A stretch of DNA of 64,000 bases from the NCBI RefSeq assembly GCF_900046455.1, contig NZ_FCOT01000013.1, positions 1-64,000 of the forward strand. Reading direction: 5' to 3'. Each line of letters begins with the position of its first letter. Position 1 is the stretch's first letter. Source of the DNA: Cellulomonas timonensis (lineage in GTDB: Bacteria > Actinomycetota > Actinomycetes > Actinomycetales > Cellulomonadaceae). Below the pieces are notes generated by a model. The model made no database searches and had not been told where the DNA came from. It worked only from the letters and a program-made list of their open reading frames with translations. Positions 11,240-26,255 of this stretch are shown here, piece by piece. The position numbers and the translations under genes were made by a program.

Positions 11240-11291
11240 CGACGACGGCGGCCCGGCCGGGCGCGCCGCGAAGACCCGGAAGAGGTGCGCA

Positions 11292-12026: not shown

Positions 12027-12052
12027 GAGAAGGGCAGTTCGGTCACAACGGC

Positions 12053-12070: not shown

Positions 12071-12110
12071 CTTGCTACGGTGGGCACACGACCGACACGA
12101 CGAGGTGTTC

Positions 12111-12932
12111 ATGTCACGCAGCTCCCCGGCCACAGCCGCCACCGAGCGGCTCTCGCTACACAACGTCAGCGTGCGCTTCGGCGGCGTCCAGGCGCTCGAC
12201 CAGGTGAGCCTCACCGTCTCCGACGGCGAGGTGGTCGGCCTCATCGGCCCGAACGGCGCGGGCAAGACCACCCTCTTCAACGTGGTCTGCGGGATCGTGC
12301 GCCCCACGAGCGGGGAGGTGCGCCTGGGCGGCACGCCGCAGCGCCCCGTCACCCACCGGCTGGTGCGCGACGGCGTGGCCCGCACGTTGCAAGGGCTCGG
12401 GTTGTTCGCCGGGCTCACCGTGCGCGAGAACGTCATGGCCGGGCTCAGCTCGACGGTGCCCGGCATGGCCGCCGCAGCCATCGGCGCGCACCGCATGCTG
12501 CGGCACGATCGGGAGGCGGCGCGGCGCGCCGAGGACGTGCTCGACGAGCTCGGCGTCCTCGACGCCGCCGATCGGCGCCCGGGCGACCTGCCGTACCCCG
12601 TCAGGAAGCGGGTCGCGCTGGCGCGCGCGCTCGTGAGCGAGCCGGCGCTGCTGCTGCTCGACGAGCCGGCCGGGGGGCTGGGCGCCGCCGACATCGCCGA
12701 CCTCGCCCGGACCGTTCGGGACCTCGCGGCCACACGCGGCTGCGCGATCCTGCTCGTGGAGCACCACGTCGACCTGGTGATGTCGCTGTGCGACCGGGTC
12801 GCGGTGCTGGACTTCGGCCGGCTGATCGCCGACGGGGCCCCGCAGGAGGTGCGCGCCGATCCTGCGGTAGTCGACGCCTACCTGGGGATCGAGGCGCCCA
12901 CGGCGCCGCGCGCCAGCGGGGGAGCGGCATGA
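12111..12932 (+). CDS. Liv-type ABC transporter ATP-binding protein (LivG-like)
   Basis: The protein has 273 residues. Walker A GPNGAGKTT is near 49, Walker B LLLLDEPAGGLG near 180 and the switch histidine in LLVEHHVDLVMSLCD near 218. The ABC signature is degenerate (LPYPVRKR in place of LSGGQ), a departure often seen in this branch of LivG-like proteins. It energises a five-component importer of the branched-chain amino acid type. Such importers near acyl-CoA ligases often take up carboxylic acids rather than amino acids. ATG 12111 is chosen because the upstream extension would cross the promoter. The stop overlaps the next start (ATGA). Confidence 0.93.
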   Translation: MSRSSPATAATERLSLHNVSVRFGGVQALDQVSLTVSDGEVVGLIGPNGAGKTTLFNVVCGIVRPTSGEVRLGGTPQRPVTHRLVRDGVARTLQGLGLFAGLTVRENVMAGLSSTVPGMAAAAIGAHRMLRHDREAARRAEDVLDELGVLDAADRRPGDLPYPVRKRVALARALVSEPALLLLDEPAGGLGAADIADLARTVRDLAATRGCAILLVEHHVDLVMSLCDRVAVLDFGRLIADGAPQEVRADPAVVDAYLGIEAPTAPRASGGAA

Positions 12933-13696
12933 GCGCCGGCGTCGTGGCTCCCCGCGCCGGGACGCCGCCGGAGGCCGCCGGCGAGCCGCTGCTCGACGTG
13001 GCCGGGCTCACCGCCGGGTACGGGGGTACCCCGGTGCTGCACGACGTGGCGCTGCGCGTCCCGGCCGGCGACGTCGTGGCGGTGGTCGGGGCGAACGGCG
13101 CGGGGAAGACGACGCTGCTGCGCGCCCTGTCGGGCCTGGTGCGGCCGCGCGCCGGGACCGTGCGGCTCGGCGGCGCCGACCTGCTGGCCGTCCCCGTCGA
13201 GCACCGGGTACGCGCGGGGCTCGCGCACGTGCCGGAGGGGCACGGAGTGATCGCCGAGCTGACAGTCGACGAGAACCTGCGGCTCGGCGGCCTGTGGCGC
13301 GGCGGCGGACGCGACCTGCGCGACGCCGTCGACGAGGTGTACGCGCTGTTCGAGCCGCTCGCCCGACGCGTCGCCAGCCCCGGCCACCAGCTCTCCGGGG
13401 GTGAGCGGCAGATGCTCGCCGTCGGCCGCGCGCTCGTCTCCCGCCCCCGGCTGCTGCTGCTCGACGAGCCATCGCTCGGCCTGGCCCCCCGCGTCGTCGC
13501 CGACATCATGGCGATGCTGCGCCGGCTCTGCGACGACCACGGGCTGACGATCCTGCTCGTCGAGCAGAACGTGCGCAGCGCGCTGTCCGTCGCCGACGTG
13601 GGCGTCGTGCTGCACCTGGGCCAGGTCGTCGCCACCCGCCCCGCGCGCTCGTTGCTCCACGACGACGCGCTCCGCCACGCCTACCTGGGGTTCTGA
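12929..13696 (+). CDS. Liv-type ABC transporter ATP-binding protein (LivF-like)
   Basis: The protein has 255 residues. Walker A GANGAGKTT is near 55, the signature LSGGERQMLAVGRAL near 158 and Walker B LLLLDEPSLGLAP near 177. It is the second nucleotide-binding subunit and forms a heterodimer with the LivG-like protein. ATG 12929 overlaps the upstream stop by four bases and its own stop overlaps the permease start by one base, so translation is coupled. Confidence 0.93.
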   Translation: MSAGVVAPRAGTPPEAAGEPLLDVAGLTAGYGGTPVLHDVALRVPAGDVVAVVGANGAGKTTLLRALSGLVRPRAGTVRLGGADLLAVPVEHRVRAGLAHVPEGHGVIAELTVDENLRLGGLWRGGGRDLRDAVDEVYALFEPLARRVASPGHQLSGGERQMLAVGRALVSRPRLLLLDEPSLGLAPRVVADIMAMLRRLCDDHGLTILLVEQNVRSALSVADVGVVLHLGQVVATRPARSLLHDDALRHAYLGF

Positions 13697-14574
13697 TGGA
13701 CCACTTCCTGCACCTGCTGAGCAGCGGCCTCGCGCGGGGCGCCGTGTTCGCGGTGTTCGCCCTCGCGCTCGTGCTCATCTGGCGGGCCGCGCGCATCGTC
13801 AACTTCGCGCAGGGCGCCATGGCCGCGGCCACCACCTACGTGGCGTTCGCCGTGACCGCCGCGACCGGGAACTACTGGCTGGGGCTCGCCGCCGCCGTGC
13901 TGGCCGGCGCCCTGCTCGGACTGGTGGTCGAGCGGGGCGTGATGCGCCACGTCGCCCGGCAGTCGCCGCTCAACAGCGTGATCGTCGCGCTGGGCGTGGT
14001 CATGGTGCTGCAGGCGGTGCTGGGCATCGCGTTCGGCAACGACTACACGCCGATGCGGGTCCCGTTCAGCATGGAGCCGCTGTGGGTGGGCGGCGTGCCA
14101 CTCCTCTCGCCCTACGACCTGTACGTGATCGGCGCCGTTGCGATGCTCCTGCTGGCGCTTGGACTGCTGTTCACCCGCACAGCCGTGGGCCTGAGGATGC
14201 GGGCCGCGGCGTTCGCCCCTGAGACGTCCCGGCTGCTCGGCGTGCCCGTGTCCCGGATGCTGACCCTCGGCTGGACGCTGTCGGCAGCAGTCGGGGCCTT
14301 CGCGGCGGTGCTCGTCATCCCCACCGAGCTGGGCCTCAACCCGCACGCCACCGACACCCTGTTCGTGTACGCGTTCACAGTGGCGATCGTGGGCGGGCTC
14401 GACTCGCCGGTGGGCGCCGCCGTGGGCGGGCTGGTAGTCGGGGTGCTGCTCAGCCTGGTCACCGGCTACCTCGGCTCCACGCTGGCGCCCATCGCGGTGC
14501 TGGTGCTGCTGGTGGTGGTGCTGCTGGTGCGGCCCGCGGGGATCTTCAGCGCGAGGCAGGTGCGGCAGGCATGA
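13696..14574 (+). CDS. Liv-type ABC transporter permease (LivH-like)
   Basis: This integral membrane protein of 292 residues has about eight hydrophobic segments, beginning with AVFAVFALALVLIWRAARIV. The segment NFAQGAMAA at about 35-43 is the characteristic LivH N-terminal motif, and FTVAIVGGLDSPVGAAVGGL near 230-249 is the conserved cytoplasmic loop that contacts the ATPase. It forms the membrane channel with the LivM-like protein. It overlaps both neighbours by a few bases. Confidence 0.92.
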   Translation: MDHFLHLLSSGLARGAVFAVFALALVLIWRAARIVNFAQGAMAAATTYVAFAVTAATGNYWLGLAAAVLAGALLGLVVERGVMRHVARQSPLNSVIVALGVVMVLQAVLGIAFGNDYTPMRVPFSMEPLWVGGVPLLSPYDLYVIGAVAMLLLALGLLFTRTAVGLRMRAAAFAPETSRLLGVPVSRMLTLGWTLSAAVGAFAAVLVIPTELGLNPHATDTLFVYAFTVAIVGGLDSPVGAAVGGLVVGVLLSLVTGYLGSTLAPIAVLVLLVVVLLVRPAGIFSARQVRQA

Positions 14575-15719
14575 GCGCCCACAGCCGCATCGACGCCCGT
14601 GCCGCCCGATGGCGCCCCGGACCGACGCTCCGGCGCCTCGCGCTCACAGTGCTCGGCCTCGCGCTCGCGATCACGGCGACGCTCGCGCTCGAGCCCTACC
14701 GCGCCTACCAGGCGGCGGTCGTCGCCGCATACCTGTGCGCGACGGCAGGCCTGACGCTGCTGGTGGGCCGGGGCGGGCAGCTCTCGCTCGGGCACGCCGC
14801 GCTGATGGCCGCGGGGGCCTACGGGTTCGGGCTCACGTCCAACGCCCTCAGCGCCGCAGACGTGGCCGGGCCCGTCCGGCTGCTGGTCCCCCTGGCGGTC
14901 GGGGTCGCGTCGGCCGCCGCGCTCGGCGCCCTACTCGGCGCCGCCGGCGCCCGGCTGCGCGGGCCGTACCTGGCAGGCCTCACCCTGGCCGTGGTGGTGG
15001 CGGTGCCAGCGATCACCAGCACCTTCTCCCGGACACTGGGCGGGGACCGCGGGCTGTGGATCGAGATCGAGCGGCGCCCGGAGGCGCTGCGCCCGTACGT
15101 CGGCGCCGAGCAATGGCAGGCCTGGGTGGCGCTCGCGGCCGCCGCGCTCGTGCTCTTCGTGCTGGGCAACGTGGGATCCGGCAGTGCCGGGCGCCAGATC
15201 GCCGCCGTGCGGGACGACGAGGCGGCGGCGCGCCTGGCCGGCATCGACGTGACCCGCGTCAAGGTCGCCACGTTCACCCTCAGCGCCGCGGCCGCGGGGC
15301 TGGGCGGCGCCGTCCTGGCCTACGTCACGCAGATCGCGAACCCCGGCGCGTACTCGCTCGTCTTCTCGCTGTTCCTAGTGGTGGCGGTGGTGGTCGGCGG
15401 GCTCGGCTCGCTCGCTGGGGCGTTCTGGGGCGCGTTGCTGCTCGTGGCGCTGCCCGAGCTCACCAGCTCCGTCACCGACGCCCTGCCGGTCAGCGCGGGA
15501 CTCGCGCAGCGCCTCGACGGGAACCTGGCGGTGCTCGTCTTCGGCGTGCTGCTCATCGTGCTGATGATCGCGGCCCCGCGCGGGATCCAGGGCGCCCTGA
15601 CCGCTGCCCGCCGCCGCGACATGCGGCCACGCAGGCCCGCGCGCGGCGCCACGCCAGCCCCGGGCCCGGCCGCCCAGACACAGGGGGACCCCGCCGCACG
15701 GGCTCCGACGGCCGGGTGA
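14571..15719 (+). CDS. Liv-type ABC transporter permease (LivM-like)
   Basis: This membrane protein of 382 residues has many hydrophobic helices and the LivM motif GRGGQLSLGHAALMAAGAYG near 64-83. The ATPase-contact loop VVVGGLGSLAGAFWGALLL is near 270-290. The last 45 residues form a Pro/Ala/Arg-rich hydrophilic tail with no counterpart in the E. coli protein, likely cytoplasmic and disordered. ATG 14571 overlaps the LivH-like stop. Confidence 0.92.
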   Translation: MSAHSRIDARAARWRPGPTLRRLALTVLGLALAITATLALEPYRAYQAAVVAAYLCATAGLTLLVGRGGQLSLGHAALMAAGAYGFGLTSNALSAADVAGPVRLLVPLAVGVASAAALGALLGAAGARLRGPYLAGLTLAVVVAVPAITSTFSRTLGGDRGLWIEIERRPEALRPYVGAEQWQAWVALAAAALVLFVLGNVGSGSAGRQIAAVRDDEAAARLAGIDVTRVKVATFTLSAAAAGLGGAVLAYVTQIANPGAYSLVFSLFLVVAVVVGGLGSLAGAFWGALLLVALPELTSSVTDALPVSAGLAQRLDGNLAVLVFGVLLIVLMIAAPRGIQGALTAARRRDMRPRRPARGATPAPGPAAQTQGDPAARAPTAG

Positions 15720-15792
15720 CAGGCGCCAGGACCGCGCGCACGACCGACCCGCAGGACAGTCCCAGACCCACCCACAGAGAAAGGCGTTCCCG

Positions 15793-17097
15793 ATGACACG
15801 TCCCAGGATCGTCCGAGCGGTCGCCGCCGCCGGCGTCGCCGCGCTGCTCGTCCCGCTGCTCGCCTCGTGCAGCGCGGACTCCACAGATGACGCGAGCGGG
15901 GCGGCAGGGGACGCCGAGCCCGCGCCCGGCGTCACCGACACGGAGATCGTGGTCGGCACGCACCACCCGCTGAGCGGTCCCGCAGCGGCCGGATACGCCT
16001 CGATCTCCGCGGCGACCACCGCCTACTTCGCCTACCTCAACGACAACGGTGGGGTGAATGGCCGCACCATCGAGTACATCGTCAAGGACGACGGCTACAA
16101 CCCGGCGACCACGCAGTCGGTGGTGCGCGAGCTGGTCCTGGAGGACCGGGTGTTCGCGCTGCTCAACGGGCTGGGCACCGCGCCGCACAGTGCCGTGCTG
16201 GACTTCCTCGACGAGAACGAGGTGCCGGACCTGTTCGTCGCGTCCGGCAGCCCCGTCTTCAACCAGCCCGACGAGCACCCGTGGACGTTCGGGTTCAATG
16301 CCGACTACACGGCGGAGGCGAAGGCGCTCGCCACCTACGCCCAGGAGCACTTCCCGGGGAAGACCACCTGCCTGCTGGCGCAGGACGACGACCTCGGCGA
16401 GGACTTCGCCGCCGGCCTGGTCACAGTGCTGGGAGAGGATGGCCTGGCCTCGGAGCAGGTGTACACGACGTCCAACCCCGACGTCTCGGCACAGGTGGCC
16501 GCGATGAAGCAGGCGGGCTGCGAGGTCAACTTCCTGGCCGCGATCAACGCGTTCAGCGCGCTCGCGGTGGGCACGGCGGCCAAGCTCGGGTACCAGCCGC
16601 AGTGGCTGTCCTCGTCGGTGGGCGGGGACTACGGCACCGTGTCGCAGTACCTCGGGGAGAACGCCGCACTGCTCGAGGGGTTCGTGAGCGCGAACTACCT
16701 GCCGTCCCACTTCAGCGAGACCGACGAGTGGACCACCCTCTTCCGCCAGATCAACGAGGACTACAACGAGGGCGCGCCGTTCGACGGCAACACCGTGTAC
16801 GGCATGTCCGTGGGCTACCTGTTCGCGGAGGCGCTGGCGAAGGCCGGTGAGACGCCGACCCGGCAGGGCATCGTCGACGCGGTGACGTCAGGGGACCTGC
16901 GCGGCAACGGCGTGGTGCCGCTGGCGCTCTCGGCGACGAACAACGGCGCCTACCAGGGCGTGCAGGTCACAGTGGTGGCCGGCGGTGTGCAGGAGTACGT
17001 GGGGACGCCGTACACGGCGGAGCCCGGCGCCGGGGAGGTGACGCCCTACACCGGCGGGCCTGTCGCGCTCGAGGACGACGGCATCCCGTCGTCCTGA
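15793..17097 (+). CDS. Liv-type ABC transporter substrate-binding lipoprotein
   Basis: The precursor has 434 residues. The N-terminus is a lipoprotein signal with a hydrophobic core and lipobox LLASC, putting the acylated cysteine at about residue 26. The mature part is a type I periplasmic-binding fold of the Peripla_BP_6/LivK family (GTHHPLSGPAAAGY, VKDDGYNPATTQSVVREL, YTTSNPDVSAQVAAMKQAG). It would capture the substrate outside the membrane and pass it to the LivHM-like permease. ATG 15793 follows GAGAAAGG. A 15-bp hairpin follows the gene. The ligand is not known; the neighbourhood suggests an organic acid. Confidence 0.93.
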   Translation: MTRPRIVRAVAAAGVAALLVPLLASCSADSTDDASGAAGDAEPAPGVTDTEIVVGTHHPLSGPAAAGYASISAATTAYFAYLNDNGGVNGRTIEYIVKDDGYNPATTQSVVRELVLEDRVFALLNGLGTAPHSAVLDFLDENEVPDLFVASGSPVFNQPDEHPWTFGFNADYTAEAKALATYAQEHFPGKTTCLLAQDDDLGEDFAAGLVTVLGEDGLASEQVYTTSNPDVSAQVAAMKQAGCEVNFLAAINAFSALAVGTAAKLGYQPQWLSSSVGGDYGTVSQYLGENAALLEGFVSANYLPSHFSETDEWTTLFRQINEDYNEGAPFDGNTVYGMSVGYLFAEALAKAGETPTRQGIVDAVTSGDLRGNGVVPLALSATNNGAYQGVQVTVVAGGVQEYVGTPYTAEPGAGEVTPYTGGPVALEDDGIPSS

Positions 17098-17123
17098 CAG
17101 GCCGTGCGCGAGGCGCCTCCGAC

Positions 17124-17157
17124 GGCAGGGCCCGGTCGACACCGACCGGGCCCTGCC
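17124..17157. terminator. Bidirectional terminator between converging operons
   Basis: A perfect 15-bp inverted repeat (GGCAGGGCCCGGTCG / CGACCGGGCCCTGCC) encloses the loop ACAC. It lies 26 bases after the binding-protein gene (rightward) and 39 bases beyond the acyl-CoA ligase stop (leftward), so it can end both operons. Confidence 0.88.
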
Positions 17158-17196
17158 ATTCCCCTGCCGTTCCCCTGGGGCGGATGCGGTGCTGCC

Positions 17197-18855
17197 TCAG
17201 GGCTCGTGCGTGAACTCCGCGACGAGCTCGCGCTTGAGCACCTTGCCGCTGGCCCCGACGGGCAGGGCGTCCACCACGTGCACGTGGCGGGGGTACTTGT
17301 AGGCGGCGATCCGCTCCTTGGCGAACGCGACGAGCTCCTCGCCGTCGAGGTGCGCGCCGGGGGCGGCGACCACCGCCGCGTGGATCTCCTGGCCCCGCGC
17401 CTCGTCGGGCAGGCCGAAGACCGCCGCGATGGCCACGCCGGGGTGCCGGGCCAGGATCTGCTCCACCTCGCTCGGGTACACGTTGTAGCCGCTGCGCACC
17501 AGCATGTCCTTCTTACGGTCGACGATGGTGAGGATGCCGTCGGCGTCCTGGGTCCCGAGGTCGCCGGTGCGGAACCAGCCGTCGACCATCACCGCGGCGG
17601 TGTCCTCGGGGCGGCCGAGATAGCCCTTGAACAGGTTGTGCCCGCGCACCACCACCTCGCCGACGACGCCGTGCGGCACGATCTCGACGACGTGCTCGAG
17701 CGCGGCGTCGGCGATCGCGACGTCGACGCCCCACAGCGCGCGGCCGACGGTGCCGGGGCGCGGCTCCTCGTTGACGTAGTTGAAGGACACCGTGGGCGAG
17801 GTCTCCGTGAGCCCGTAGCCCTCGTGCACGGGCGCCCCGAACGTCGCCTCGAACTGCTCCAGCACGGCCACCGGCAGCGCGGACCCGCCGGAGACCGCGT
17901 AGCGCAGCGGCGGGCGGCCGGGATGCTCGATGGCGGCGGCGAGCAGCGCGACGTACATCGTCGGCACCGCTGTGAACACGGTCGCGCCGTGCTCGACCAT
18001 CAGGTCGAGCGCCTCGGCCGGGTCGAACCGGGGGATCAGCAGCACCGTCGCCCCGCGCCGGAACGCCATGTTCATCACCGAGCTCTGCCCGAAGCTGTGG
18101 AACAGCGGCAGGCCGCCGAAGACCACGTCGTCGGCGGTCAGGTCGAACATGTCGATCAGCGCGACGTGCACCTGCTCGACGAGCGCCAGGTGCGAGCCCA
18201 CGGCGCCCTTGGGCTTGCCGGTGGTGCCGCTGGTGTACAGCACCGTCGCGGCCGCCAGCGGGTTGACGGGCTCATGGCGCGGCAGCGGCTCGGCGGCCGC
18301 CGCCTCGTCCTCGAGCCGTGGCACGGGTGTCTGCGCCGCGAGCGTCTCGGGCAGCAGCACCGAGACCATCGGCACGCCCGCAGCCGCCGCGGCGGGTGCG
18401 GCCACGGGCAGCAGCGGGGCGGCGACGACGAGCACCCGAGCGCCGCTGTCGCGCAGCACATGCTCGATCTCCTCGGCCTTGAACAGCAGGTGCACCGGCA
18501 CGACGACGGCGCCCAGGGCCAGGACCGCGTAGTAGACGCGCGGGAAGTCGGGCACGTTCGGCACCAGCATGGCCACCCGGTCGCCGGGTCCGATGCCCCT
18601 GGCCCGCAGCGCGCCGGCGTAGCCGCGGGCCTGGTCCCACAGGTCCCGGTAGGTCGTGGCGGCGCCCGCCCAGACGACTGCTGTGCGGTTGGGAGTGCGC
18701 CGGGCCTGCTCGGCGAGGATCGAGGCCACCGACAGGCTGCCGTGGCCGAGGCCGCCCAGGGCGGCGTCTGGAGTGGGGCCTTGGGCGTGGGCCGGCGCGG
18801 GGGCCGGTTCGCGGAGGCCCGCGAGCGCGGGAGAGGACTGAGGACTCGACATCAT
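17197..18855 (-). CDS. Acyl-CoA synthetase (AMP-forming, FadD-like)
   Basis: This ANL-superfamily enzyme has 552 residues and activates a carboxylic acid to its CoA thioester with ATP. Motifs are the P-loop YTSGTTGKPKGA near 208, GYGLTETSP near 350, DGWFRTGDLG near 431, the hinge DRKKDMLVRSGYNVYPSEVE near 450 and the catalytic lysine in GKVLKREL near 542. Two ATG codons are adjacent at 18855 and 18852; GGAAGG lies upstream. The first 40 residues are Pro/Ala-rich and not conserved. It is the last gene of the kinase-dehydrogenase-ligase operon, which is under TetR-type operator 3. In the Lva comparison it takes the place of LvaE. Confidence 0.92.
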   Translation of the reverse strand: MMSSPQSSPALAGLREPAPAPAHAQGPTPDAALGGLGHGSLSVASILAEQARRTPNRTAVVWAGAATTYRDLWDQARGYAGALRARGIGPGDRVAMLVPNVPDFPRVYYAVLALGAVVVPVHLLFKAEEIEHVLRDSGARVLVVAAPLLPVAAPAAAAAGVPMVSVLLPETLAAQTPVPRLEDEAAAAEPLPRHEPVNPLAAATVLYTSGTTGKPKGAVGSHLALVEQVHVALIDMFDLTADDVVFGGLPLFHSFGQSSVMNMAFRRGATVLLIPRFDPAEALDLMVEHGATVFTAVPTMYVALLAAAIEHPGRPPLRYAVSGGSALPVAVLEQFEATFGAPVHEGYGLTETSPTVSFNYVNEEPRPGTVGRALWGVDVAIADAALEHVVEIVPHGVVGEVVVRGHNLFKGYLGRPEDTAAVMVDGWFRTGDLGTQDADGILTIVDRKKDMLVRSGYNVYPSEVEQILARHPGVAIAAVFGLPDEARGQEIHAAVVAAPGAHLDGEELVAFAKERIAAYKYPRHVHVVDALPVGASGKVLKRELVAEFTHEP

Positions 18856-18919
18856 GCCCTTCCTTTCATCGTCGTCGTCGACGTGCTCCGGTGCTGCGGC
18901 ACACCACCGGTAGAACAGC

Positions 18920-20161
18920 TCAGGGATGAGCCGGCTCGGGGAGCGGCTGCGTGCGGCGCAGCTCTGCCGCTCCGAGGGAGACGCGGTGGACCTCGTCGGG
19001 CCCGTCGGCCAGGCGCAGCGCCCGGGCGGCCGCGAACATCGCGGCCAGCGGCTCGTCGTCGTGCAGGCCGGCTGCCCCGTGGAGTTGCACGGCGCGGACG
19101 AGGATCTGCTGCACGGCGCCAGGCACGGCGACCTTGATCGCGTGGATCTCGGTCATGGCGGCGCGGTTGCCGGCCGTGGCCATCAGCCAGGCCGTCTTGA
19201 GCACGAGCAGCCGCAGCGCCTCAATGGCCCACCGGGACTCCGCGAGCCATTCCCGCACCACCCCGCGCGTCGCGAGCGGGCGGCCGAACGTGACGCGCTG
19301 GTGCGCTCGGGCGCCCATCAGATCCATCGCGCGCTCGGCCATGCCCAGCGCCCGCATGCAGTGGTGGACGCGGCCCGGGCCGAGGCGCGCCTGCGCGATC
19401 GCGAAGCCCTCGCCCTCGCCGCCCACCAGGTTCTCCGCCGGGACGCGGGCGTCCTCGAACACGATCTCGGCGTGGCCGCCGTGGTCCCGGTCGTCGTAGC
19501 CGAAGACGGTCAGCGGCCGCACCACCCGCACGCCGGGGGTGTCGCGCGGCACCAGGATCATGCTCTGGCGCCGGTGGCGCGGCGCCTCGGGGTCGGTGGC
19601 GCCCATCACCACCAGCAGGGCCGCATCGGGGTTCATGGCGCCTGTCGACCACCACTTGCGCCCGGTCACGACGTAGGAGTCGCCGTCGCGGCGCAGGCGG
19701 GTGGCCAGGTGGGCCGCATCCGAGGAGGCGACGTCCGGCTCGGTCATGCAGAACGCGGAGCGGATGGAGCCGGCGAGCAGCGGGGCGAGCCAACGCTCCT
19801 TCTGCGCGGGCGTGCCGAACTGGTGCAGCAGCTCCATGTTGCCCGAGTCCGGCGCCGCGCAGTTCATCGCCACCGGGGCGAGCTGGGGGCTGCGGCCGCT
19901 CAGCTCGGCCACCGGCGCGTACTGCAGCGTGGTCAGCCCGCGCCCGCCGTCGCCGTGGTCGCCGGGCAGGAACAGGTTCCACAGCCCGCGCTCGCGGGCG
20001 TCGTCGCGCAGCGCGCCGACCACTGGCCGCAGCGACCACACGTCCGGCGTCTGCGCGACCTCGCGGCGCAGCACGGGCTCGGCGGGGTAGACGCAGTCCT
20101 CCAGGAAGTCCTGCATGAGGTCGACGTACTTCGACGCTGTGGCGTCGTGCGCGAAGTCCAT
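18920..20161 (-). CDS. Acyl-CoA dehydrogenase family protein, ACAD10/ACAD11 type
   Basis: This FAD enzyme has 413 residues. Central motifs are FCMTEPDVASSDAAHL near 139 and YVVTGRKWWSTGAMNPDAAL near 161. The C-terminal region has QLHGAAGLHDDEPLAAMF near 365 and ADGPDEVH near 391. In canonical dehydrogenases the catalytic base sits in YEGT; here the aligned motif is ADGP, so Glu appears replaced by Asp, as in the ACAD10/ACAD11 branch. It starts 10 bases after the APH-type kinase gene. Those mammalian proteins join the same two domains in one chain, and the bacterial LvaA-LvaC pair processes 4-hydroxyacyl-CoA through a 4-phospho intermediate. That route is the leading hypothesis here; ordinary dehydrogenation is the alternative. 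Confidence 0.88.
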   Translation of the reverse strand: MDFAHDATASKYVDLMQDFLEDCVYPAEPVLRREVAQTPDVWSLRPVVGALRDDARERGLWNLFLPGDHGDGGRGLTTLQYAPVAELSGRSPQLAPVAMNCAAPDSGNMELLHQFGTPAQKERWLAPLLAGSIRSAFCMTEPDVASSDAAHLATRLRRDGDSYVVTGRKWWSTGAMNPDAALLVVMGATDPEAPRHRRQSMILVPRDTPGVRVVRPLTVFGYDDRDHGGHAEIVFEDARVPAENLVGGEGEGFAIAQARLGPGRVHHCMRALGMAERAMDLMGARAHQRVTFGRPLATRGVVREWLAESRWAIEALRLLVLKTAWLMATAGNRAAMTEIHAIKVAVPGAVQQILVRAVQLHGAAGLHDDEPLAAMFAAARALRLADGPDEVHRVSLGAAELRRTQPLPEPAHP

Positions 20162-20171
20162 GACTGCCCCT

Positions 20172-21251
20172 CTACCTGGCGCCGGTGCGGGTGGGGCCCA
20201 GGGACGCGAGCCCGTGGGCGGCGAGCGGGGCGACGAGCGCGCCCACGGTGTCGAAGCCGGGGCCGACGGTCTCCCCGGCCAGGTGCCTGTAGTGGATCCC
20301 CTCGAGGATGATCGCCAGCTTGTATGCCGCGAACGCGCGGTACCAGGCGAGCTTGGGCACGGGGGCCCGGCGGGTGGCGCTGTACACGTCGACCAGCTCG
20401 TCGAACGAGGGGTAGCCCGCGGCGGGGTCGACGGCGCTCGCGGCCGCTCCCATCGCCTCGCCGCTGAGCGTGCGGATGTCCCAGTAGAGCGCCAGCAGGC
20501 CCAGGTCGGTGAGTGAGTCGCCGAGGGTCGCCATCTCCCAGTCGAGGATGGCCGCGAGCGTGGGCGCGCCGTCCGGCCCGACCTGCACGATGGCGTTGTC
20601 GAGTCGGTAGTCGCCGTGCAGGATCGAGGTGCGGGTCGTGGCGGGGATGCTCGCGCGGAGCTCGTCCTGGAGTTGGTCGAGCTGGGGCAGCGGGCGGCTG
20701 CGGGACCTGTCGTACTGCTCTCCCCAGCGGCGTGCCTGCCGGGTGAGGAACCCGTCGGGGCGCCCGAGGGACCCGAGCCCGACGGACTGCGGGTCGAGGC
20801 TGTGCAGGCGCCCGAGGGTGGCCGCGAGGTCGAGGCTGAGGGCGCGGAGCTGCGGCGCCGAGAACTGGGCGTTGTCCGCCGGGGACCTGAGCACGACGCC
20901 CTCCACGAGCTCCATCACGTAGAACGGCGTGCCGACACCTGCCGACCCGTCGGAGTCGTCGTGGTGGAGCTCGGCGCGGGGGACGGGCACCGACGCGGGC
21001 GCCAGGGCCGAGATGACGCGGTGCTCGCGGGCCATGTCGTGGGCGGTGCTGAGCACGTGGCCGAGGGGCGGCCGGCGCAGCACGAGCGGGGCGGCGCCGC
21101 CGGTCACCTGGTAGGTGAGGTTGCTGCGCCCGCCGTCGAGGATGGTCGCGCGCAATGGCCCGTCGGCGAGCAGGTCGGGGCGCCGGGGGCGCAGCCATCG
21201 TTCGAACGTCGAGGTGGACAGGCCCACCGGTTCCGTCAGGTGTTCGCTCAC
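20172..21251 (-). CDS. APH-family phosphotransferase, probable hydroxyacyl-CoA kinase
   Basis: This protein-kinase-like phosphotransferase has 359 residues. ATP-binding residues are in DGGRSNLTYQV near 33, the catalytic loop is SILHGDYRLDNAIV near 207 and the metal-binding motif AAILDWEMATLGDSLTDLG near 230. It belongs to the acyl-CoA-associated subgroup (ACAD10/11 N-terminal domain, LvaA), not to antibiotic kinases. Known members phosphorylate the 4-hydroxyl of hydroxyacyl-CoA. It starts the operon with the acyl-CoA dehydrogenase and ligase. GTG 21251 is chosen because a longer frame would run through the promoter and operator. No LvaB-like small partner is seen. Confidence 0.86.
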   Translation of the reverse strand: MSEHLTEPVGLSTSTFERWLRPRRPDLLADGPLRATILDGGRSNLTYQVTGGAAPLVLRRPPLGHVLSTAHDMAREHRVISALAPASVPVPRAELHHDDSDGSAGVGTPFYVMELVEGVVLRSPADNAQFSAPQLRALSLDLAATLGRLHSLDPQSVGLGSLGRPDGFLTRQARRWGEQYDRSRSRPLPQLDQLQDELRASIPATTRTSILHGDYRLDNAIVQVGPDGAPTLAAILDWEMATLGDSLTDLGLLALYWDIRTLSGEAMGAAASAVDPAAGYPSFDELVDVYSATRRAPVPKLAWYRAFAAYKLAIILEGIHYRHLAGETVGPGFDTVGALVAPLAAHGLASLGPTRTGAR

Positions 21252-21323
21252 AGTCGGCGTCTTCCCGCAGGGGTCGTGGCGACGCGCCCTGGTGGGGCGG
21301 TGGCCCTGGAGCGTCACGGTAAC

Positions 21324-21341
21324 ATACCGGCTAGTCGGTTT
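21324..21341. promoter_or_regulatory. TetR-type operator, site 3 (kinase-dehydrogenase-ligase promoter)
   Basis: ATACCGGCTAGTCGGTTT lies about 72 bases upstream of the kinase gene, read leftwards. TATGTT (21326-21321 on the minus strand) abuts it and is a plausible -10, so the operator occupies the -35/-10 spacer. It differs from site 2 at one position. Confidence 0.82.
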
Positions 21342-21359
21342 GATGGTCGTTCGCACGAC

Positions 21360-21773
21360 TTAGGCCACCAGGCGCGCCTCGACCGCCGCGCGCAGCGCGG
21401 CCGGGATGGGGACGGGGCGACGATGCGCCCGGTCGACGAAGACGTGCACGAACCGGCCCGTCGCCAGCAGCTGTCCGTCGTGCTCGCGGAAGATGCCGGT
21501 CTCCCAGGTGAGGCTCGTGGAGCCGAGGCGCCCGGCGCGCAGGCCGACCACCAGCACGTCGGGGTAGCTGCCGGAGGCGACGTACTCGCACGACGACGCC
21601 TTGCAGACGCCGATAGCCGATCCGTCCAGCAGGTCCAGGCCGCCGTGCTCGATGAGCCACGTGTTGATCGTCGTGTCCATGGCCTCGTAGTAGACGGCGT
21701 TGTTCACGTGGCCGTAGACGTCGTTGTCGTTCCAGCGGGTGGGGAACGCCGCTCGGTGCCCGTACTCGTCCAT
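21360..21773 (-). CDS. Acyl-CoA thioesterase, hotdog fold (4HBT type)
   Basis: The protein has 137 residues, normal for the 4-hydroxybenzoyl-CoA thioesterase/YbgC family. The diagnostic RWNDNDVYGHVNNAVYYEAM at about 13-32 contains the catalytic Asp. It hydrolyses acyl-CoA esters and may release trapped CoA. ATG 21773 follows GAGGTGG. It lies 50 bases after the TetR gene on the same strand and is probably in one operon with it. Confidence 0.9.
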   Translation of the reverse strand: MDEYGHRAAFPTRWNDNDVYGHVNNAVYYEAMDTTINTWLIEHGGLDLLDGSAIGVCKASSCEYVASGSYPDVLVVGLRAGRLGSTSLTWETGIFREHDGQLLATGRFVHVFVDRAHRRPVPIPAALRAAVEARLVA

Positions 21774-21823
21774 GTCGCGTCCACCTCGTCGTGGGTCGTC
21801 GTGGGTCGGTTCGTGCTGCGCGG

Positions 21824-22474
21824 TCAGGCGCCCCGCAGCACGTAGGCGAACGAGGCGTGCGCGCGCTCGGCGCTGGGCTCCTCGCCCGTGACCAGGTCGG
21901 CGTAGGTGAAGGACTCGGAGATGCGCACCAGCAGGTATGCGAGGTCGTGGGCGGGCAGCCCGAGGGTCAGGCGGCCGGCGTCGGACTCCTCGCGCAGCAG
22001 GTGCTCGATCACGGCGACGTAGCGCCGTTGCACCTGGCTGTCCTTCGTGGTCAACAGGCGCAGCGCGCGGGCGGGCTCGCGGCGCAGGAAGGCGCGGAAG
22101 TAGTCGGCCGAGATGAGCGCGTCGACGAACTCGGTGAGCAGCGCGACGACGCGGTCGGCGCCGCGCCCGGCCGCCAGGCTGTCGGCGTGGGTGAGCGTCG
22201 GGACGGCAAGCGACCACAGCACCTCGGAGAGCAGCGAGTCACGGTTGCCGACCCAGCGGAACAGCGACGTGCGGTCCACGCCCAGGCTGGCCGCGAGCTC
22301 GCCCATGTCGACGCGGTCGCCGGCCACGAAGGTCTTGCGGGCGAGGAGGAAGGCGCGCAGGGCGTCGGCGTGCGCGTCGGGGCCGGGCTCGAGGCGGCGC
22401 GACAGCGGGCTGGGCGCGAGCGTGGCGCCGAGGTCGCCGAGGCCCTGGGCCCGAGGGGTGGCCGTCGAGGTCAT
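21824..22474 (-). CDS. TetR-family regulator (QsdR-like)
   Basis: The protein has 216 residues. The helix-turn-helix is DMGELAASLGVDRTSLFRWV near 60-79. The C-terminal part (RISESFTYADLVTGEEPS near 186) resembles the QsdR group. ATG 22474 is taken as the start since upstream codons would overlap the operator. It is divergent from an acyl-CoA dehydrogenase gene, and a 24-bp palindrome lies between them. It probably represses itself, the thioesterase and the dehydrogenase-thiolase unit until an acyl ligand binds. It differs clearly from the TetR at 9666-10262, as do the operators. Confidence 0.87.
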   Translation of the reverse strand: MTSTATPRAQGLGDLGATLAPSPLSRRLEPGPDAHADALRAFLLARKTFVAGDRVDMGELAASLGVDRTSLFRWVGNRDSLLSEVLWSLAVPTLTHADSLAAGRGADRVVALLTEFVDALISADYFRAFLRREPARALRLLTTKDSQVQRRYVAVIEHLLREESDAGRLTLGLPAHDLAYLLVRISESFTYADLVTGEEPSAERAHASFAYVLRGA

Positions 22475-22504
22475 GCCCGCACAGTAACGGGGGGACAAAC
22501 CGGA

Positions 22505-22528
22505 TGCAACATTCTGCAGAATGATGCA
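22505..22528. promoter_or_regulatory. 24-bp palindromic operator of the QsdR-like regulator
   Basis: TGCA-ACATTCTGCAGAATGA-TGCA is symmetric at 22 of 24 positions around the perfect core ATTCTGCAGAAT (22511-22522). It lies in the 106-base divergent region, 30 bases from the tetR start and 52 from the dehydrogenase start. It is the obvious binding site for the adjacent regulator and appears only here in the window. Confidence 0.85.
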
Positions 22529-22580
22529 TAGTGGAAGCCACGACAGGAGCCACGACACCCCTCGAGCAACGGAGCCCAGG

Positions 22581-23759
22581 ATGCGGTCAGACCTGCTGAG
22601 CAGCGACTTCTACTCGTTCCAGGACCGCCTCACGCCCCGGGAGTCCGAGGTGACGCTGGCCGTGCGCGACTTCTTCGAGGCCGAGGTCCGGCCCATCGCC
22701 AACGACTTCTGGGCCCGCGCCGAGTTCCCGGGACACCTCGTCAAGCCGCTTGCCGGCCTCGGCCTGCTCGGCGCCGCCTGGGAGGAGTCCCGGCAGTTCG
22801 AGAACTCCGCCCAGTGGCGCGGCTGGATCGCCCTGGAGATGTCCCGCGTCGACGCGTCGGTCTCCTCGTTCGTGGGCGTGCAGAGCGGGCTGGCGATGGG
22901 GTCCATCGCCAGCGGCGGCTCACCCGCCCAGCGCAAGGAGTGGCTGCCCGTGATGGCCACCGGGGAAGTCGTCGGCGCCTTCGGGCTCACCGAGCCGTTG
23001 TCCGGCTCCGACTCCGCGCGCGGCCTGCGCACCGTGGCGCAGCGGCGCGGCGAGAGCTGGGTGCTCAACGGGGCCAAGCGGTGGATCGGCAACGGGACCT
23101 TCGCCGACATCGTGGTCATCGCCGCCCGCGACGCCGCCGACGGGCAGGTCAAGAGCTTCCTGGTGCCGACCAGCACACCCGGGTTCGCCGCCGCCAAGAT
23201 CGAGGGCAAGCAGAGCCTGCGGATCGTGCAGAACGCCGACCTCACCCTGCGGGACGTCGTGGTGCCGGACGAGCTGCGGCTACCGCTCGTCGAGTCGTTC
23301 CGCGACGTGGCCACGGTGCTGCGGCTCACCCGCGCCGAGGTGGCCTGGCAGGCCGTCGGCAACTCGATCGGCGCCTACGAGGCGGCCGTCGCCTACGCCA
23401 AGGAGCGCGAGCAGTTCGGCAGGCCCATTGGCGCCCACCAACTCGTGCAGGACCTGCTCTCACGATGCCTGGGGAACATCACGGCGAGCATCGCGCTGTG
23501 CATGCAGGTCTCCCGGCTGCTCGACGAGGGCCGCCAGCTCGACGAGCACGCGGCGCTCGCCAAGTCCTTCGCGACCAGCCGGATGCGCGAGACCGTCGCC
23601 TGGTCGCGGGAGATCCTCGGCGGCAACGGCATCCTGCTGCAGAACGACGTCGCCCGGCACTTCGCCGACGCCGAGGGCATCTACTCCTACGAGGGCACGC
23701 GCGAGATGAACAGCCTCATCGTGGGGCGCGCGATCACCGGCCACGCCGCGTTCGCCTGA
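22581..23759 (+). CDS. Acyl-CoA dehydrogenase, glutaryl-CoA dehydrogenase-like
   Basis: The protein has 392 residues. FAD/substrate motifs FGLTEPLSGSDSARGL near 134 and WVLNGAKRWIGNGTFADI near 160, and the catalytic base in YSYEGTREMNSLIVGRAITG near 368-387, identify the GCDH branch. Carboxylate-binding residues of human GCDH (Arg94 and Ser98, in YRSAMSVQ) align with Ser and Gly in VSSFVGVQ near 98. So glutaryl-CoA is an unlikely substrate and a simple acyl-CoA is more likely. ATG 22581 follows GGAGCCCAGG. It is divergent from the QsdR-like gene and followed by the thiolase. Confidence 0.9.
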   Translation: MRSDLLSSDFYSFQDRLTPRESEVTLAVRDFFEAEVRPIANDFWARAEFPGHLVKPLAGLGLLGAAWEESRQFENSAQWRGWIALEMSRVDASVSSFVGVQSGLAMGSIASGGSPAQRKEWLPVMATGEVVGAFGLTEPLSGSDSARGLRTVAQRRGESWVLNGAKRWIGNGTFADIVVIAARDAADGQVKSFLVPTSTPGFAAAKIEGKQSLRIVQNADLTLRDVVVPDELRLPLVESFRDVATVLRLTRAEVAWQAVGNSIGAYEAAVAYAKEREQFGRPIGAHQLVQDLLSRCLGNITASIALCMQVSRLLDEGRQLDEHAALAKSFATSRMRETVAWSREILGGNGILLQNDVARHFADAEGIYSYEGTREMNSLIVGRAITGHAAFA

Positions 23760-23791
23760 GACCCGAGCCACCGCCCCGAGAGGACGTCGCC

Positions 23792-25030
23792 GTGCCTAGA
23801 CCTGCCATGCCCGAGGCCGTCATCGTCGCCGCCACCCGGTCGCCCACCGGCCGGGCCTTCAGGGGCTCGCTCGCCGCCCGGCGCGCCGACGACCCCACCG
23901 CCGAGATCGTCGCCGCCGCGCTCGCGGCCGTGCCCGCGCTGAACCCCGAGCGCATCGACGACCTGATCCTGGGCTGCGGGCTGCCCGGCGGGGAGCAGGG
24001 CATGAACATGGCGCGCGTCGTCGCAGTGCTGCTCGGCCTCGACGCCGTCCCGGGAACCACCGTCACCCGCTACTGCGCGTCCAGCCTCCAGTCCACCCGC
24101 ATGGCCTTCCACGCGATCAAGGCCGGCGAGGGCGACGTGTTCGTCTCGGCGGGCGTCGAGACCGTCAGCCGCTCGGCGCACGGCACCAGCGACCACATCC
24201 CCGGCGAGGAGGTCCGCAACCCGCGGCTGGCCGACGCGATGGCGCGCAGCGAGAAGCTCGCCTCGGGCGGCGGGCGGTGGACCGATCCGCGTGGGGAGGG
24301 CGACGTGCCCGACGTCTACGTCGCGATGGGGCAGACCGCCGAGAACGTCGCCCAGCTCTGCGGGGTCACCCGCGACGAGCAGGACGCGTTCGCCGCCCTG
24401 AGCCAGCAGCGCGCGCAGGCGGCACTCGCCAGCGGCTTCTGGGGGCGGGAGATCACGCCCGTCACCCGGCCCGACGGGTCCGTGGTCTCGCGCGACGACG
24501 GCCCGCGCGCCGGGGTCACCGTCGAGACGCTCGCGGGGCTCGAGCCGGTGTTCCGGCCCGACGGCACCGTGACCGCCGGCAACTGCTGCGCGCTCAACGA
24601 CGGCGCCGCGGCGCTGGTCGTCATGAGCGACACCGTCGCCGACGAGCTCGGGCTGGCGCCGCTCGCCCGGATCGTGTCCACGGGGGTCAGCGGGCTCTCG
24701 CCCGAGATCATGGGACTCGGCCCCGTCGAGGCGAGCCGGCAGGCGCTGGCGCGGGCCCGGCTCACGATCGACGACATGGACCTGGTGGAGATCAACGAGG
24801 CCTTCGCCGCACAGGTGCTGCCCTCCGCGCGCCAGCTCGGCGTGGACCCCGAGCGGCTGAACGCGCATGGCGGGGCGATCGCCGTCGGCCACCCGTTCGG
24901 CATGACTGGCGCCCGCATCACCGGCACCCTGCTCAACGGCCTGGCCGCCGTGGACGGACGCTACGGGCTGGAGACGATGTGCGTGGGCGGCGGGCAGGGG
25001 ATGGCGATGGTGGTGGAGCGACTCCGCTGA
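23792..25030 (+). CDS. Acetyl-CoA acyltransferase (thiolase)
   Basis: The thiolase has 412 residues. The nucleophilic cysteine is in TVTRYCASSLQSTRMA near 95, with INEAFAAQ near 332, the active-site histidine in NAHGGAIAVGHPFGMTGAR near 353 and the second cysteine in METMCVGGGQ-like ETMCVGGGQG near 395. It cleaves 3-ketoacyl-CoA with CoA in the last step of beta-oxidation. GTG 23792 follows GAGAGGAC at good distance; an in-frame ATG at 23807 is possible. It lies 32 bases after the dehydrogenase and is probably co-transcribed. Confidence 0.94.
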   Translation: MPRPAMPEAVIVAATRSPTGRAFRGSLAARRADDPTAEIVAAALAAVPALNPERIDDLILGCGLPGGEQGMNMARVVAVLLGLDAVPGTTVTRYCASSLQSTRMAFHAIKAGEGDVFVSAGVETVSRSAHGTSDHIPGEEVRNPRLADAMARSEKLASGGGRWTDPRGEGDVPDVYVAMGQTAENVAQLCGVTRDEQDAFAALSQQRAQAALASGFWGREITPVTRPDGSVVSRDDGPRAGVTVETLAGLEPVFRPDGTVTAGNCCALNDGAAALVVMSDTVADELGLAPLARIVSTGVSGLSPEIMGLGPVEASRQALARARLTIDDMDLVEINEAFAAQVLPSARQLGVDPERLNAHGGAIAVGHPFGMTGARITGTLLNGLAAVDGRYGLETMCVGGGQGMAMVVERLR

Positions 25031-25044
25031 CACCGGCGTCAGCG
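25025..25044. terminator. Short hairpin spanning two converging stop codons
   Basis: CGCTGAC (25025-25031) and GTCAGCG (25038-25044) form a 7-bp stem with loop ACCGGC. The stem contains the TGA of the thiolase on one strand and the TGA of the MaoC gene on the other. It may act as a compact bidirectional terminator. The stem is short and lacks a T run. Confidence 0.5.
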
Positions 25045-25491
25045 AGCCAGCACCGAGATCGTCTCGGCCACCAGGGCGGGCTTCTCTGCGCCCTCGATCT
25101 CCACGGTCACGGCCAGGGTGAGCCGCACGCCGAGGCCCACCCGGCGCGCGTCGGCCACCGAGCCCGTCGCCCGCACGCGCGAGCCCACGCGCACGGGCTG
25201 CAGGAACCGGACCCGGTCCAGCCCGTAGTTCACGGCCATCGTCACACCGTCCACCACGAGCAGCGACGAGGTCAGCACGGGCAGCAGCGACAGGGTGAGG
25301 TAGCCGTGCGCGATCGGGGCGCCGAACGGCCCGGCGGCCGCGCGCTCGGGGTCGACATGGATCCACTGCTCATCGTCGGTGGCGGCCGCGAACGCGTCGA
25401 TGCGCTCCTGGTCGACGGGGAACCAGTCCCCGGCGCCGAGGTCGGCGCCCGCCGCGTCGAGCAGGGCGTCAGGGCTGGTGAAGGCTCGCAC
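25039..25491 (-). CDS. MaoC-family (R)-specific enoyl-CoA hydratase-like protein
   Basis: The protein has 150 residues and a single hotdog domain. The hydratase motif QWIHVDPERAAAGPFGAPIA, then HG, near 59-80 contains the catalytic Asp and His. It would hydrate trans-2-enoyl-CoA. No crotonase-type hydratase is present in the island, so this is the only evident hydratase for its beta-oxidation steps. GTG 25491 lies 8 bases after the FabG-like stop with GGGGG before it. It is the last gene of the alcohol dehydrogenase-SDR-MaoC operon. Confidence 0.88.
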   Translation of the reverse strand: MRAFTSPDALLDAAGADLGAGDWFPVDQERIDAFAAATDDEQWIHVDPERAAAGPFGAPIAHGYLTLSLLPVLTSSLLVVDGVTMAVNYGLDRVRFLQPVRVGSRVRATGSVADARRVGLGVRLTLAVTVEIEGAEKPALVAETISVLAR

Positions 25492-25499
25492 GGCGCCCC

Positions 25500-26255
25500 C
25501 TAGGCCTGAGGTCCGCCGGCGACGTACAGCACCTGGCCCGAGACGAAGGAGGCCTCGTCCGAGCACAGGTAGGACGCTGCGGCGGCGATGTCGTCGGGCT
25601 GCCCGACCCGGCGCACCGGGATCTGCTGGGCTGCGGCCCCCAGGTACTCCTCGAAGCTGATGCCCAGGCGGGCTGCCGAGGCGCGGAGCATGTCGGTGGC
25701 GATGAAGCCGGGCGCGATGGCGTTCGCGGTGATGCCGAACGGGCCCAGCTCAATGGCCAGCGTCTTGGTGAAGCCCTGCAGCCCGGCCTTCGCCGCCGCG
25801 TAGTTCGCCTGCCCGCGGTTGCCCAGTGCCGAGGTGCTCGACAGGTTGACGACGCGGCCCCAGCGGGCCTCGACCTGGTGGCGCTGCACCTCGCGTGACA
25901 TGAGGAACGCGCCGCGCAGGTGCACCGCCACGACGGCGTCCCAGTCCTCGTCGGCCATCTTGAACAGCATGTTGTCACGCAGGATGCCCGCGTTGTTGAC
26001 CAGCACGGTGGGCGCGCCGAGCTCCTGCGCGGTCCGTGCGACTGCCGCCTGCACATGGGGGCCCACGGACACGTCGGCCCCGATGCCGATGGCCTTGCCG
26101 CCCTTGTCGGTAATGGCGGCGACGGTCGAGGCGGTGTCCTCTTCCCGCAGGTCGAGCACTGCGACGTGGTTCCCGTCGGCGGCCAGGCGGCGGGCGATGG
26201 CCGCGCCGATCCCGCGCGCGGCTCCGGTGACGATTGCGACTCGTGTCTCAGACAT
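25500..26255 (-). CDS. 3-oxoacyl-ACP/CoA reductase-like SDR (FabG family)
   Basis: This SDR has 251 residues. TGAARGIGAAIA is near 11, NNAGIL near 87, Ser in NLSSTSALGNRG near 137, and YAAAK near 151-155 gives the Tyr-Lys pair. The C-terminal VSGQVLYVAGG completes the fold. Between a MaoC hydratase and an alcohol dehydrogenase it most likely oxidises or reduces a 3-hydroxyacyl/3-ketoacyl-CoA. Its start overlaps the upstream alcohol dehydrogenase stop by 8 bases, indicating translational coupling. Confidence 0.92.
   Translation of the reverse strand: MSETRVAIVTGAARGIGAAIARRLAADGNHVAVLDLREEDTASTVAAITDKGGKAIGIGADVSVGPHVQAAVARTAQELGAPTVLVNNAGILRDNMLFKMADEDWDAVVAVHLRGAFLMSREVQRHQVEARWGRVVNLSSTSALGNRGQANYAAAKAGLQGFTKTLAIELGPFGITANAIAPGFIATDMLRASAARLGISFEEYLGAAAQQIPVRRVGQPDDIAAAASYLCSDEASFVSGQVLYVAGGPQA

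Follow-up and report, generated by a model that had tools for sequence, protein, structure and literature searches.

Can one actinobacterial locus import a 4-hydroxy acid, remove its hydroxyl group through a phospho-acyl-CoA, and degrade the remainder? This question is raised by the genome of Cellulomonas timonensis (4.06 Mb), in which the window, the whole stretch of 64 kb analysed here, forms the start of contig C13 (1.1 Mb). As the initial annotation had described, three leftward genes at 17197-21251 encode an APH-type kinase, an acyl-CoA dehydrogenase homologue (ACAD), and an AMP-forming acyl-CoA ligase, which was borne out by the coordinates and the Pfam domains (Table 1). The kinase and ACAD genes are 10 bp apart, and the ACAD and ligase genes are 64 bp apart. 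Since their third-position GC content is 0.96-0.97, the three genes look coding. The kinase and the ACAD were found to be two separate genes, not a single fused chain of the ACAD10/11 kind. Judged by sequence comparison, the trio is a split ACAD11-type pair with a ligase and is no lva operon. Very probably, it is the heart of a complete importer-coupled cassette for the catabolism of 4-hydroxy acids.

The ACAD is predicted to be an ACAD11-type enzyme that eliminates phosphate from a 4-phosphoacyl-CoA. Its best match in the PDB is human ACAD11 (2wbi, E 2e-123), followed by mouse ACAD11 and the putative ACAD 4hr3 (5e-120), and the first chain beyond this ACAD11-like set matches at E 1.6e-43 only. 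Over 391 aligned positions, it is 50.9% identical to human ACAD11 and 50.4% identical to mouse ACAD11. Its identity to LvaC is 37.9%, the reference lva operon being L200 of Pseudomonas sp. Kh13, recognised by gene order and Pfam domains. It was revealed that R259, R264, H267, C268, M269, R270, and D386 of the window ACAD correspond to R626, R631, H634, C635, M636, R637, and D753 of mouse ACAD11 (numbered as in PMC12440821; the numbers in the present alignment differ by one or more). According to that paper, R626, H634, R637, and D753 surround the 4-phosphate and the alpha carbon, and the changes with the most disruptive effect on ACAD10/11 were nonconservative ones at R626, H634, and R637. The window ACAD thus carries the catalytic Asp, the upstream Arg, and the HCMR cluster of the ACAD10/11-LvaC group. 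The FadE2 of the window and three ordinary ACADs have no equivalents of R626, H634, R637, and D753, and their catalytic base is Glu. Asp replaces this Glu in 77 of the 82 ACAD rows compared, the others being four ordinary rows with Glu and one gap. R259, R264, H267, M269, R270, and D386 are invariant across 23 aligned rows including the window, down to 47% identity.

The initial annotation had also proposed to place both proteins relative to the ACAD10/11 and Lva clades, and the ACAD was found to group with mammalian ACAD11. A position of both proteins outside these clades would have refuted the initial reading, and the analysis did not give that outcome. In the 82-row tree, the window protein belongs to a 24-row clade (support by the SH-like approximate likelihood ratio test, SH-aLRT, 100) inside a 75-row ACAD11-like set (SH-aLRT 99). 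This set includes the ACAD11 of mammals alongside proteins from Pseudomonas, Bacillus, and many Actinomycetota. Outside it lie LvaC, L103, and L201, which is another protein from Pseudomonas. Bacterial ACAD11-like proteins are widespread. Matches to the window ACAD at E ≤ 1e-80 are patchily distributed, in 32 of 150 genomes of the family and 63 of 297 genomes of the order. A search of the window's genome for another ACAD11-type gene found none, the next match to the ACAD being 34% identical. Five Pseudomonas loci (L173, L179, L181, L182, and L183) have an ACAD11-like gene 53-54% identical to the window ACAD; no neighbouring kinase was recognised in any of the five, and therefore they were not taken as the lva reference.

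The kinase, in turn, is predicted to be an ACAD11-type 4-hydroxyacyl-CoA kinase. Might it instead be an antibiotic phosphotransferase that lies beside a fatty-acid gene by accident? Weak NCBIfam matches to APH(3′) and other kinases (21-24 bits against cut-offs of at least 205) could be read in this way, but the PDB matches are 9o56, 3dxp, and the ACAD11 kinase domain (E 2.2e-42), while hygromycin kinase appears at 8.7e-5. Residues R75, R171, D214, and N219 correspond to R86, R176, D220, and N225 of mouse ACAD11 (numbering of the same paper); D214 and N219 are the catalytic residues and R75 and R171 the CoA-contact arginines, as expected of an ACAD11-type kinase. Among 63 kinases, the equivalents of D220 and N225 are kept in all, that of R86 in 62, and that of R176 in 61, the exceptions being LvaA at both positions and one gap. 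The conservation of the CoA-contact arginines speaks against an antibiotic kinase. So does gene neighbourhood. The kinase and the ACAD occur together in all of 22 loci, namely 20 stretches of up to 20 kb around relatives with at least 69% ACAD identity and two Microbacterium loci (L107 was excluded as belonging to the same genome as L076). Since the ligase is also present in 20 of them, the arrangement of the trio is no chance event, and an accidental antibiotic kinase is extremely improbable. In the kinase tree, a 24-row clade (SH-aLRT 100) comprises the same 24 loci as the ACAD clade. The window kinase is 29% identical to LvaA of L200, which is on another branch.

Does this kinase need a partner? 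In the reference operon, the small protein between the kinase and the ACAD is DUF6285 (PF19802), and PMC6692424, citing Rand et al. 2017, relates that LvaB came down with LvaA in a pull-down and that neither protein could be dispensed with. The initial annotation had seen no LvaB-like small protein, and this holds genome-wide, as no DUF6285 match was found at E ≤ 0.001. Among the 150 family genomes, none has a match over the cut-off and two have a weak match below it; the cassette is present in G147, one of the two, at a distance of more than 2 Mb from the weak match. Four of the 297 order genomes have a match over the cut-off (six at E ≤ 0.001), and in all four it lies in or against an LvaA-like frame (100-124 bits with LvaA and at most 58 with the window kinase). 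In a sample of the phylum, 38 of 396 genomes have a match, 36 of them over the cut-off.

A profile of LvaA-type kinases (A2), scored on at most five candidates per genome, gave 36 genomes at 267 bits or more, with the next match at 156.7 bits and none between, and it had no match in the genome of the window at E ≤ 1e-30. All 36 kinases have a DUF6285 match within 200 bases (coordinates compared by eye; the match of G545 is below the cut-off), a figure that includes some ascertainment because 12 of the 13 rows of A2 come from DUF6285 loci. Conversely, an LvaA-type kinase is present in 35 of the 36 genomes with DUF6285 over the cut-off, the exception being G685 (64% complete). DUF6285 without an LvaA-type kinase occurs in two of the 38 genomes, G685 and G757, the match of the latter being below the cut-off. 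At 34 DUF6285 loci examined, every kinase scores higher with LvaA than with the window kinase; Arg is found at the R176 column in none of the 34 (29 gaps and 5 other letters) and at the R86 column in 3.

Since the window kinase keeps the CoA-contact arginines that LvaA-type kinases lack, and since LvaA-type kinases co-occur with DUF6285, of which the genome has no match, the window kinase is predicted from its sequence to work alone, without an LvaB partner. The earlier suggestion to this effect is strengthened. LvaB may make good the missing CoA-contact wall of LvaA. I tentatively propose, as a possibility somewhat short of probable, two classes of kinases: ACAD11-type kinases would grip CoA by their own R86 and R176 and act alone, while LvaA-type kinases would need LvaB for the lost wall. 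The window would then hold a cassette of the first class that is free of LvaB, self-regulated, coupled to an importer, and mobile between actinobacterial genomes as a unit. Four loci in the order (L205-L208, in G230, G383, G308, and G418) have DUF6285 and an LvaA-like kinase in one frame of 469-558 amino acids, an arrangement that resembles a naturally fused LvaA-LvaB. In three of the four (L205, L207, and L208), the adjacent frames are LvaE-like or LvaC-like.

What surrounds the trio? The cassette consists of 19 genes at 8924-27405. MaoC, thiolase, short-chain dehydrogenases/reductases (SDRs), and an importer had all been placed in this island by the initial annotation, and all are present by domain or family matches. 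For the counts in the 22 loci, presence was defined as 45% identity across half of the query; the stretches often end before the outermost genes. Beside the trio, FadE2 and SDR3 are found in 20 loci; thiolase, MaoC, and the thioesterase in 19; the substrate-binding protein (SBP), LivM, and TetR2 in 17; LivF and LivH in 16; LivG in 15; ADHz2 in 14; SDR2 in 13; ADHz1 in 12; TetR1 in 11; and SDR1 in 5. At least 15 of the 19 genes are present in 14 of the 22 loci, and L069 and L074 have 18 of them in a different order. Most of the 20 additional stretches and 77 named loci from beyond the clade are without the cassette, while four loci outside the clade (L097, L124, L132, and L151) have at least three importer genes beside the ACAD and kinase genes.

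A 20-base palindrome, CATACCG-N6-CGGT(A/T)TG with small variations, was found at 8851, 12052, 21323, and 27481. A scan of the window for ACCG-N6-CGGT gave five sites, these four putative operators and one at 61390 without the flanks. The degenerate pattern, which was derived from the four cassette sites themselves, has five exact matches in the genome; the fifth (C13:770559-770578) lies outside the cassette and has a different inner sequence. When one mismatch was allowed, there were 11 matches, against three for a reversed control pattern. Six of the 11 belong to the cassette, where 8851 and 21323 match on both strands but 12052 and 27481 on a single strand, and the other five lie elsewhere. 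In the relatives, 45 sites with at least five of the six flank bases were found in 21 of the 22 loci, none within a called gene. They lie at the kinase gene in 17 loci, at LivG in 15, and at ADHz2 in 7, whereas Markov shuffling gave no site in 50 draws of ten loci. Because the operator is shared, recurrent, and free of sites in the shuffled controls, these sequences argue that the importer and the kinase operon form one regulon. The importer that had been ascribed to the cassette is supported both by this operator and by its presence in 17 of the 22 loci.

TetR1 would be the natural candidate for the reader of the operator, because a site precedes its own operon. The sites at 8851, 12052, and 21323 resemble the binding sequence of the gamma-butyrolactone receptors ArpA/CprB quoted in PMC4150764. 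This likeness is suggestive of a gamma-hydroxyacid or lactone pathway, but it may be a coincidence. TetR1 as a plain gamma-butyrolactone receptor was rejected: the best-scoring NCBIfam model, an ScbR-like one, reaches 62.5 bits where the cut-off is 150, and the PDB ranks 3dcf (84.7 bits) and KstR2 (57.6) above CprB (41). A second palindrome, GCAACATTCTGCAGAATGATGC, is common to the FadE2-thiolase and TetR2 units, lying between TetR2 and FadE2, and is a putative TetR2 site seen in only some relatives.

The reactions, their order, and the substrate proposed here are read from the gene content. The Liv-type importer would bring in either a small 4-hydroxy acid or a compound that is later reduced to it (a 4-keto acid or an opened gamma-lactone). 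The ligase would form the CoA thioester, and SDR2 may feed 4-keto acids into the route. The stand-alone ACAD11-type kinase would phosphorylate the 4-hydroxyl group, and the ACAD would eliminate the phosphate via a transient FAD redox step to give a 2-enoyl-CoA. MaoC, SDR3, and thiolase would complete a round of beta-oxidation, yielding acetyl-CoA and a shortened acyl-CoA. SDR3, whose best PDB match is a (3R)-hydroxyacyl-CoA dehydrogenase, would suit a hydratase of R specificity such as MaoC.

Which substrate is the cassette made for? Its genes would be compatible with levulinate, with 4-hydroxyvalerate, or with a 4-hydroxy acid or gamma-lactone of medium chain length. If levulinate (4-ketovalerate) is the substrate, the ligase would form levulinyl-CoA, SDR2 or another SDR would reduce it to 4-hydroxyvaleryl-CoA, and the kinase and ACAD would act as in P. 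putida. The gene roles parallel those of LvaE, LvaD, LvaA, and LvaC in the pathway of PMC6692424 and PMC9399607, and the best NCBIfam model of SDR2, trans-4-hydroxycyclohexanecarboxylate dehydrogenase ChcB1 (264.8 bits, below the cut-off of 400), acts on a 4-hydroxy/4-keto carboxylate. However, there is no orthologue of LvaD or LvaE (identities of 33-35%), the 19 cassette genes lack LvaB, the sigma-54 regulator LvaR, and the SSF symporter, all present in the reference operon or next to it, and FadE2 suggests chains beyond C5 or further rounds. Levulinate is thus a rather doubtful candidate, though a real one. A medium-chain 4-hydroxy acid or gamma-lactone of plant or microbial origin, with FadE2 and thiolase serving later rounds of beta-oxidation, has a prospect somewhat short of even. 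It would account for the retention of FadE2 (20/22) and thiolase (19/22), it agrees with the suggestion in PMC12440821 that mammalian ACAD11 fits much longer substrates, and the likeness of the operator to the ArpA/CprB sequence (PMC4150764) would fit as well. On the other hand, the recurrent genes include neither a lactonase nor an esterase, and the nearness of TetR1 to 3dcf and others including KstR2, with CprB lower, leaves room for the operator likeness to be due to chance. Liv-type importers usually carry small solutes, which also speaks against longer chains.

It is improbable that the kinase and the ACAD dehydroxylate a 4-hydroxy ring intermediate of an alicyclic or aromatic acid. The Liv-type importer, the feruloyl-CoA synthetase among the best PDB matches of the ligase, and the resemblance of SDR2 to ChcB1 would be consistent with such a route, but the cassette has no ring-opening hydrolase, ring hydroxylase, or aromatic dioxygenase. 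Nor did the accessory genes give a clue to a ring substrate or any other, as no accessory family recurs in more than three of the 22 loci.

Several observations weigh against the importer-coupled 4-hydroxyacid cassette and against the two kinase classes. The kinase is only 34% identical to ACAD11, the many acyl-CoA and aryl-CoA ligases that the ligase matches point to no particular substrate, and the best E-value of the weak PDB relatives of the SBP is 1.8e-15. A minimal 4-hydroxyvalerate route would offer no evident role for ADHz1, ADHz2, SDR1, FadE2, or the thioesterase. No importer SBP is within the stretch in L068, L072, L073, L076 (near a contig end), and L077, and no ligase is within the stretches of L075 and L077. 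Both trees are of a quick type supported by SH-aLRT alone; LvaA is on a very long branch in the kinase tree, and two outgroup rows of the ACAD tree are very long. The R176 segment aligns poorly between the two kinase classes. Moreover, PMC6692424 reports that the lva gene region of P. citronellolis has no lvaB; unless a small gene was overlooked there, this speaks against a strict pairing of LvaA with LvaB.

How does the cassette compare with known systems? The ACAD, 50-51% identical to ACAD11, shares the Asp and the Arg...HCMR residues with mammalian ACAD10/ACAD11 (PMC12440821, PMC11342911), and the kinase shares the catalytic and CoA-contact residues of ACAD11. In contrast to the mammalian fused chain, the window has two adjacent genes clustered with ligase, importer, and beta-oxidation genes, and there is no HAD domain such as ACAD10 has. 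With the Pseudomonas lva operon (LvaABCDE), the cassette shares the kinase, ACAD, SDR, and ligase roles and, as expected, the phospho-acyl-CoA chemistry. However, the identities are only 38% for the ACAD and 29% for the kinase, LvaB/DUF6285 was not found, an ABC importer takes the place of the SSF symporter, TetR regulators with a palindromic operator that of the sigma-54 LvaR, and the cassette has a MaoC, SDR, and thiolase of its own. An lva operon proper is ruled out by the lack of LvaB, LvaR, and the symporter among the 19 genes and by the separate tree branches. Of the reaction unit first described as Lva-like or ACAD10/11-like, the ACAD10/11-type pair stands by residues and trees, while an Lva-orthologous pair does not. 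Similarly, the ligase is AMP-forming and may fill the role of LvaE, but at 34% identity it is no close relative or orthologue. SDRs that could play LvaD are present, but SDR1, SDR2, and SDR3 are each 33-35% identical to LvaD, and this tie, a further point of doubt, allows no single assignment. By description, the window pair also resembles the separate LvaA/LvaC-related kinase and ACAD of Burkholderia in PMC11342911, which replaced the ACAD10 domains in vitro; its main text makes no mention of LvaB. The same paper gives the identity of ACAD10/11 to LvaC as 62% and 56%, which differs from the 36% found here between mouse ACAD11 and the LvaC of L200 over 325 positions.

The cassette is enclosed by an alpha-galactoside/glucan region (5654-8692 and 27583-44889), with GlgB and a LacI-type regulator on the left and, on the right, a glycoside hydrolase family 2 (GH2) gene, GH36, an oligopeptide-type ABC importer, ROK, maltokinase-like, and alpha-amylase-family (TreS-like) genes, and GlgE. 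It sits between the LacI-type regulator and the GH2 gene. In G038, GH2 also follows the cassette, and GlgB lies 1.7 kb before the fetched stretch. Three genomes of the same genus (G016, G081, and G069) have LacI and GH2 adjacent at a cassette-free site; G016 and G081 carry the ACAD and kinase genes elsewhere. Another of the genus (G091) lacks the cassette at the site and has no LacI match. In G055 (L280), also of this genus, whose GlgB is 96% identical to that of the window, only SDR3 (84%) and FadE2 (87%) of the 19 genes lie between GH2 and LacI, which may be a remnant or a partial gain. It appears that most gains and losses have affected the cassette as a whole. At the ends of the island, no repeats were found other than GC-rich matches of 9-11 bp. 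Elsewhere in the window are a FAD_binding_2 flavoprotein gene (47785-49500) and genes for the beta and alpha subunits of electron-transfer flavoprotein (51926-53727), a possible electron acceptor for FadE2.

Table 1. Genes of the cassette and putative regulatory sites, in positions of the window.
Feature	Position	Strand	Remark
Operator upstream of SDR1-TetR1, left cassette edge	8851-8870	.	putative, motif scan
SDR1	8924-9649	+	family match
TetR1	9666-10262	+	candidate operator reader
ADHz1, quinone-oxidoreductase-like MDR	10259-11239	+	family match
SDR2	11292-12026	+	candidate for 4-keto/4-hydroxy step
Operator upstream of importer (LivG)	12052-12071	.	putative, motif scan
LivG-type ABC ATPase	12105-12932	+	
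LivF-type ABC ATPase	12929-13696	+	
LivH-type permease	13696-14574	+	
LivM-type permease	14649-15719	+	open reading frame start at 14571 possible
Liv-type SBP	15793-17097	+	
AMP-forming acyl-CoA ligase	17197-18855	-	552 aa; AMP-binding 311 bits and C-terminal domain
ACAD	18920-20161	-	413 aa; Pfam N-terminal, middle, and C-terminal ACAD domains
Kinase, APH fold	20172-21251	-	359 aa, GTG start; Pfam APH 147.5 bits; PDB sequence search, residues, tree
Operator CATACCG-N6-CGGTTTG upstream of kinase	21323-21342	.	putative, motif scan
4HBT-fold thioesterase	21360-21773	-	kept in 19/22 loci
TetR2 regulator (TetR_C_36)	21824-22474	-	
Second palindrome	22506-22527	.	putative TetR2 site
FadE2, ordinary acyl-CoA dehydrogenase	22581-23759	+	catalytic Glu, no Arg/HCMR cluster
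Thiolase	23807-25030	+	PRK07851, 703.6 bits (above NCBIfam cut-off 580)
MaoC-type hydratase	25039-25491	-	
SDR3, FabG-like	25500-26255	-	best PDB match a (3R)-hydroxyacyl-CoA dehydrogenase
ADHz2, zinc alcohol dehydrogenase	26248-27405	-	
Operator upstream of ADHz2-SDR3-MaoC, right cassette edge	27481-27500	.	weaker: 4/6 flank bases, under threshold for relatives

The chemistry itself is already known (PMC12440821, PMC11342911). Among the matches listed in the literature searched (titles and abstract openings, mostly non-subscription), neither the actinobacterial importer-coupled cassette, nor its operator, nor the rule that separates LvaA-DUF6285 from ACAD11-type kinases was found, and the name DUF6285 was not found among the matches listed for LvaB, DUF6285, and LvaA. 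With this locus, the recently recognised chemistry of ACAD10/11 would reach an actinobacterial pathway whose candidate genes, from uptake to thiolysis, lie in one place and largely under one operator. It also offers a rule by which the kinases that should depend on LvaB, whose role is unexplained, can be told from their sequence. Finally, the separate ACAD11-like domains could be assayed or engineered without the mammalian fusion, for example in the upgrading of gamma-valerolactone or levulinate.

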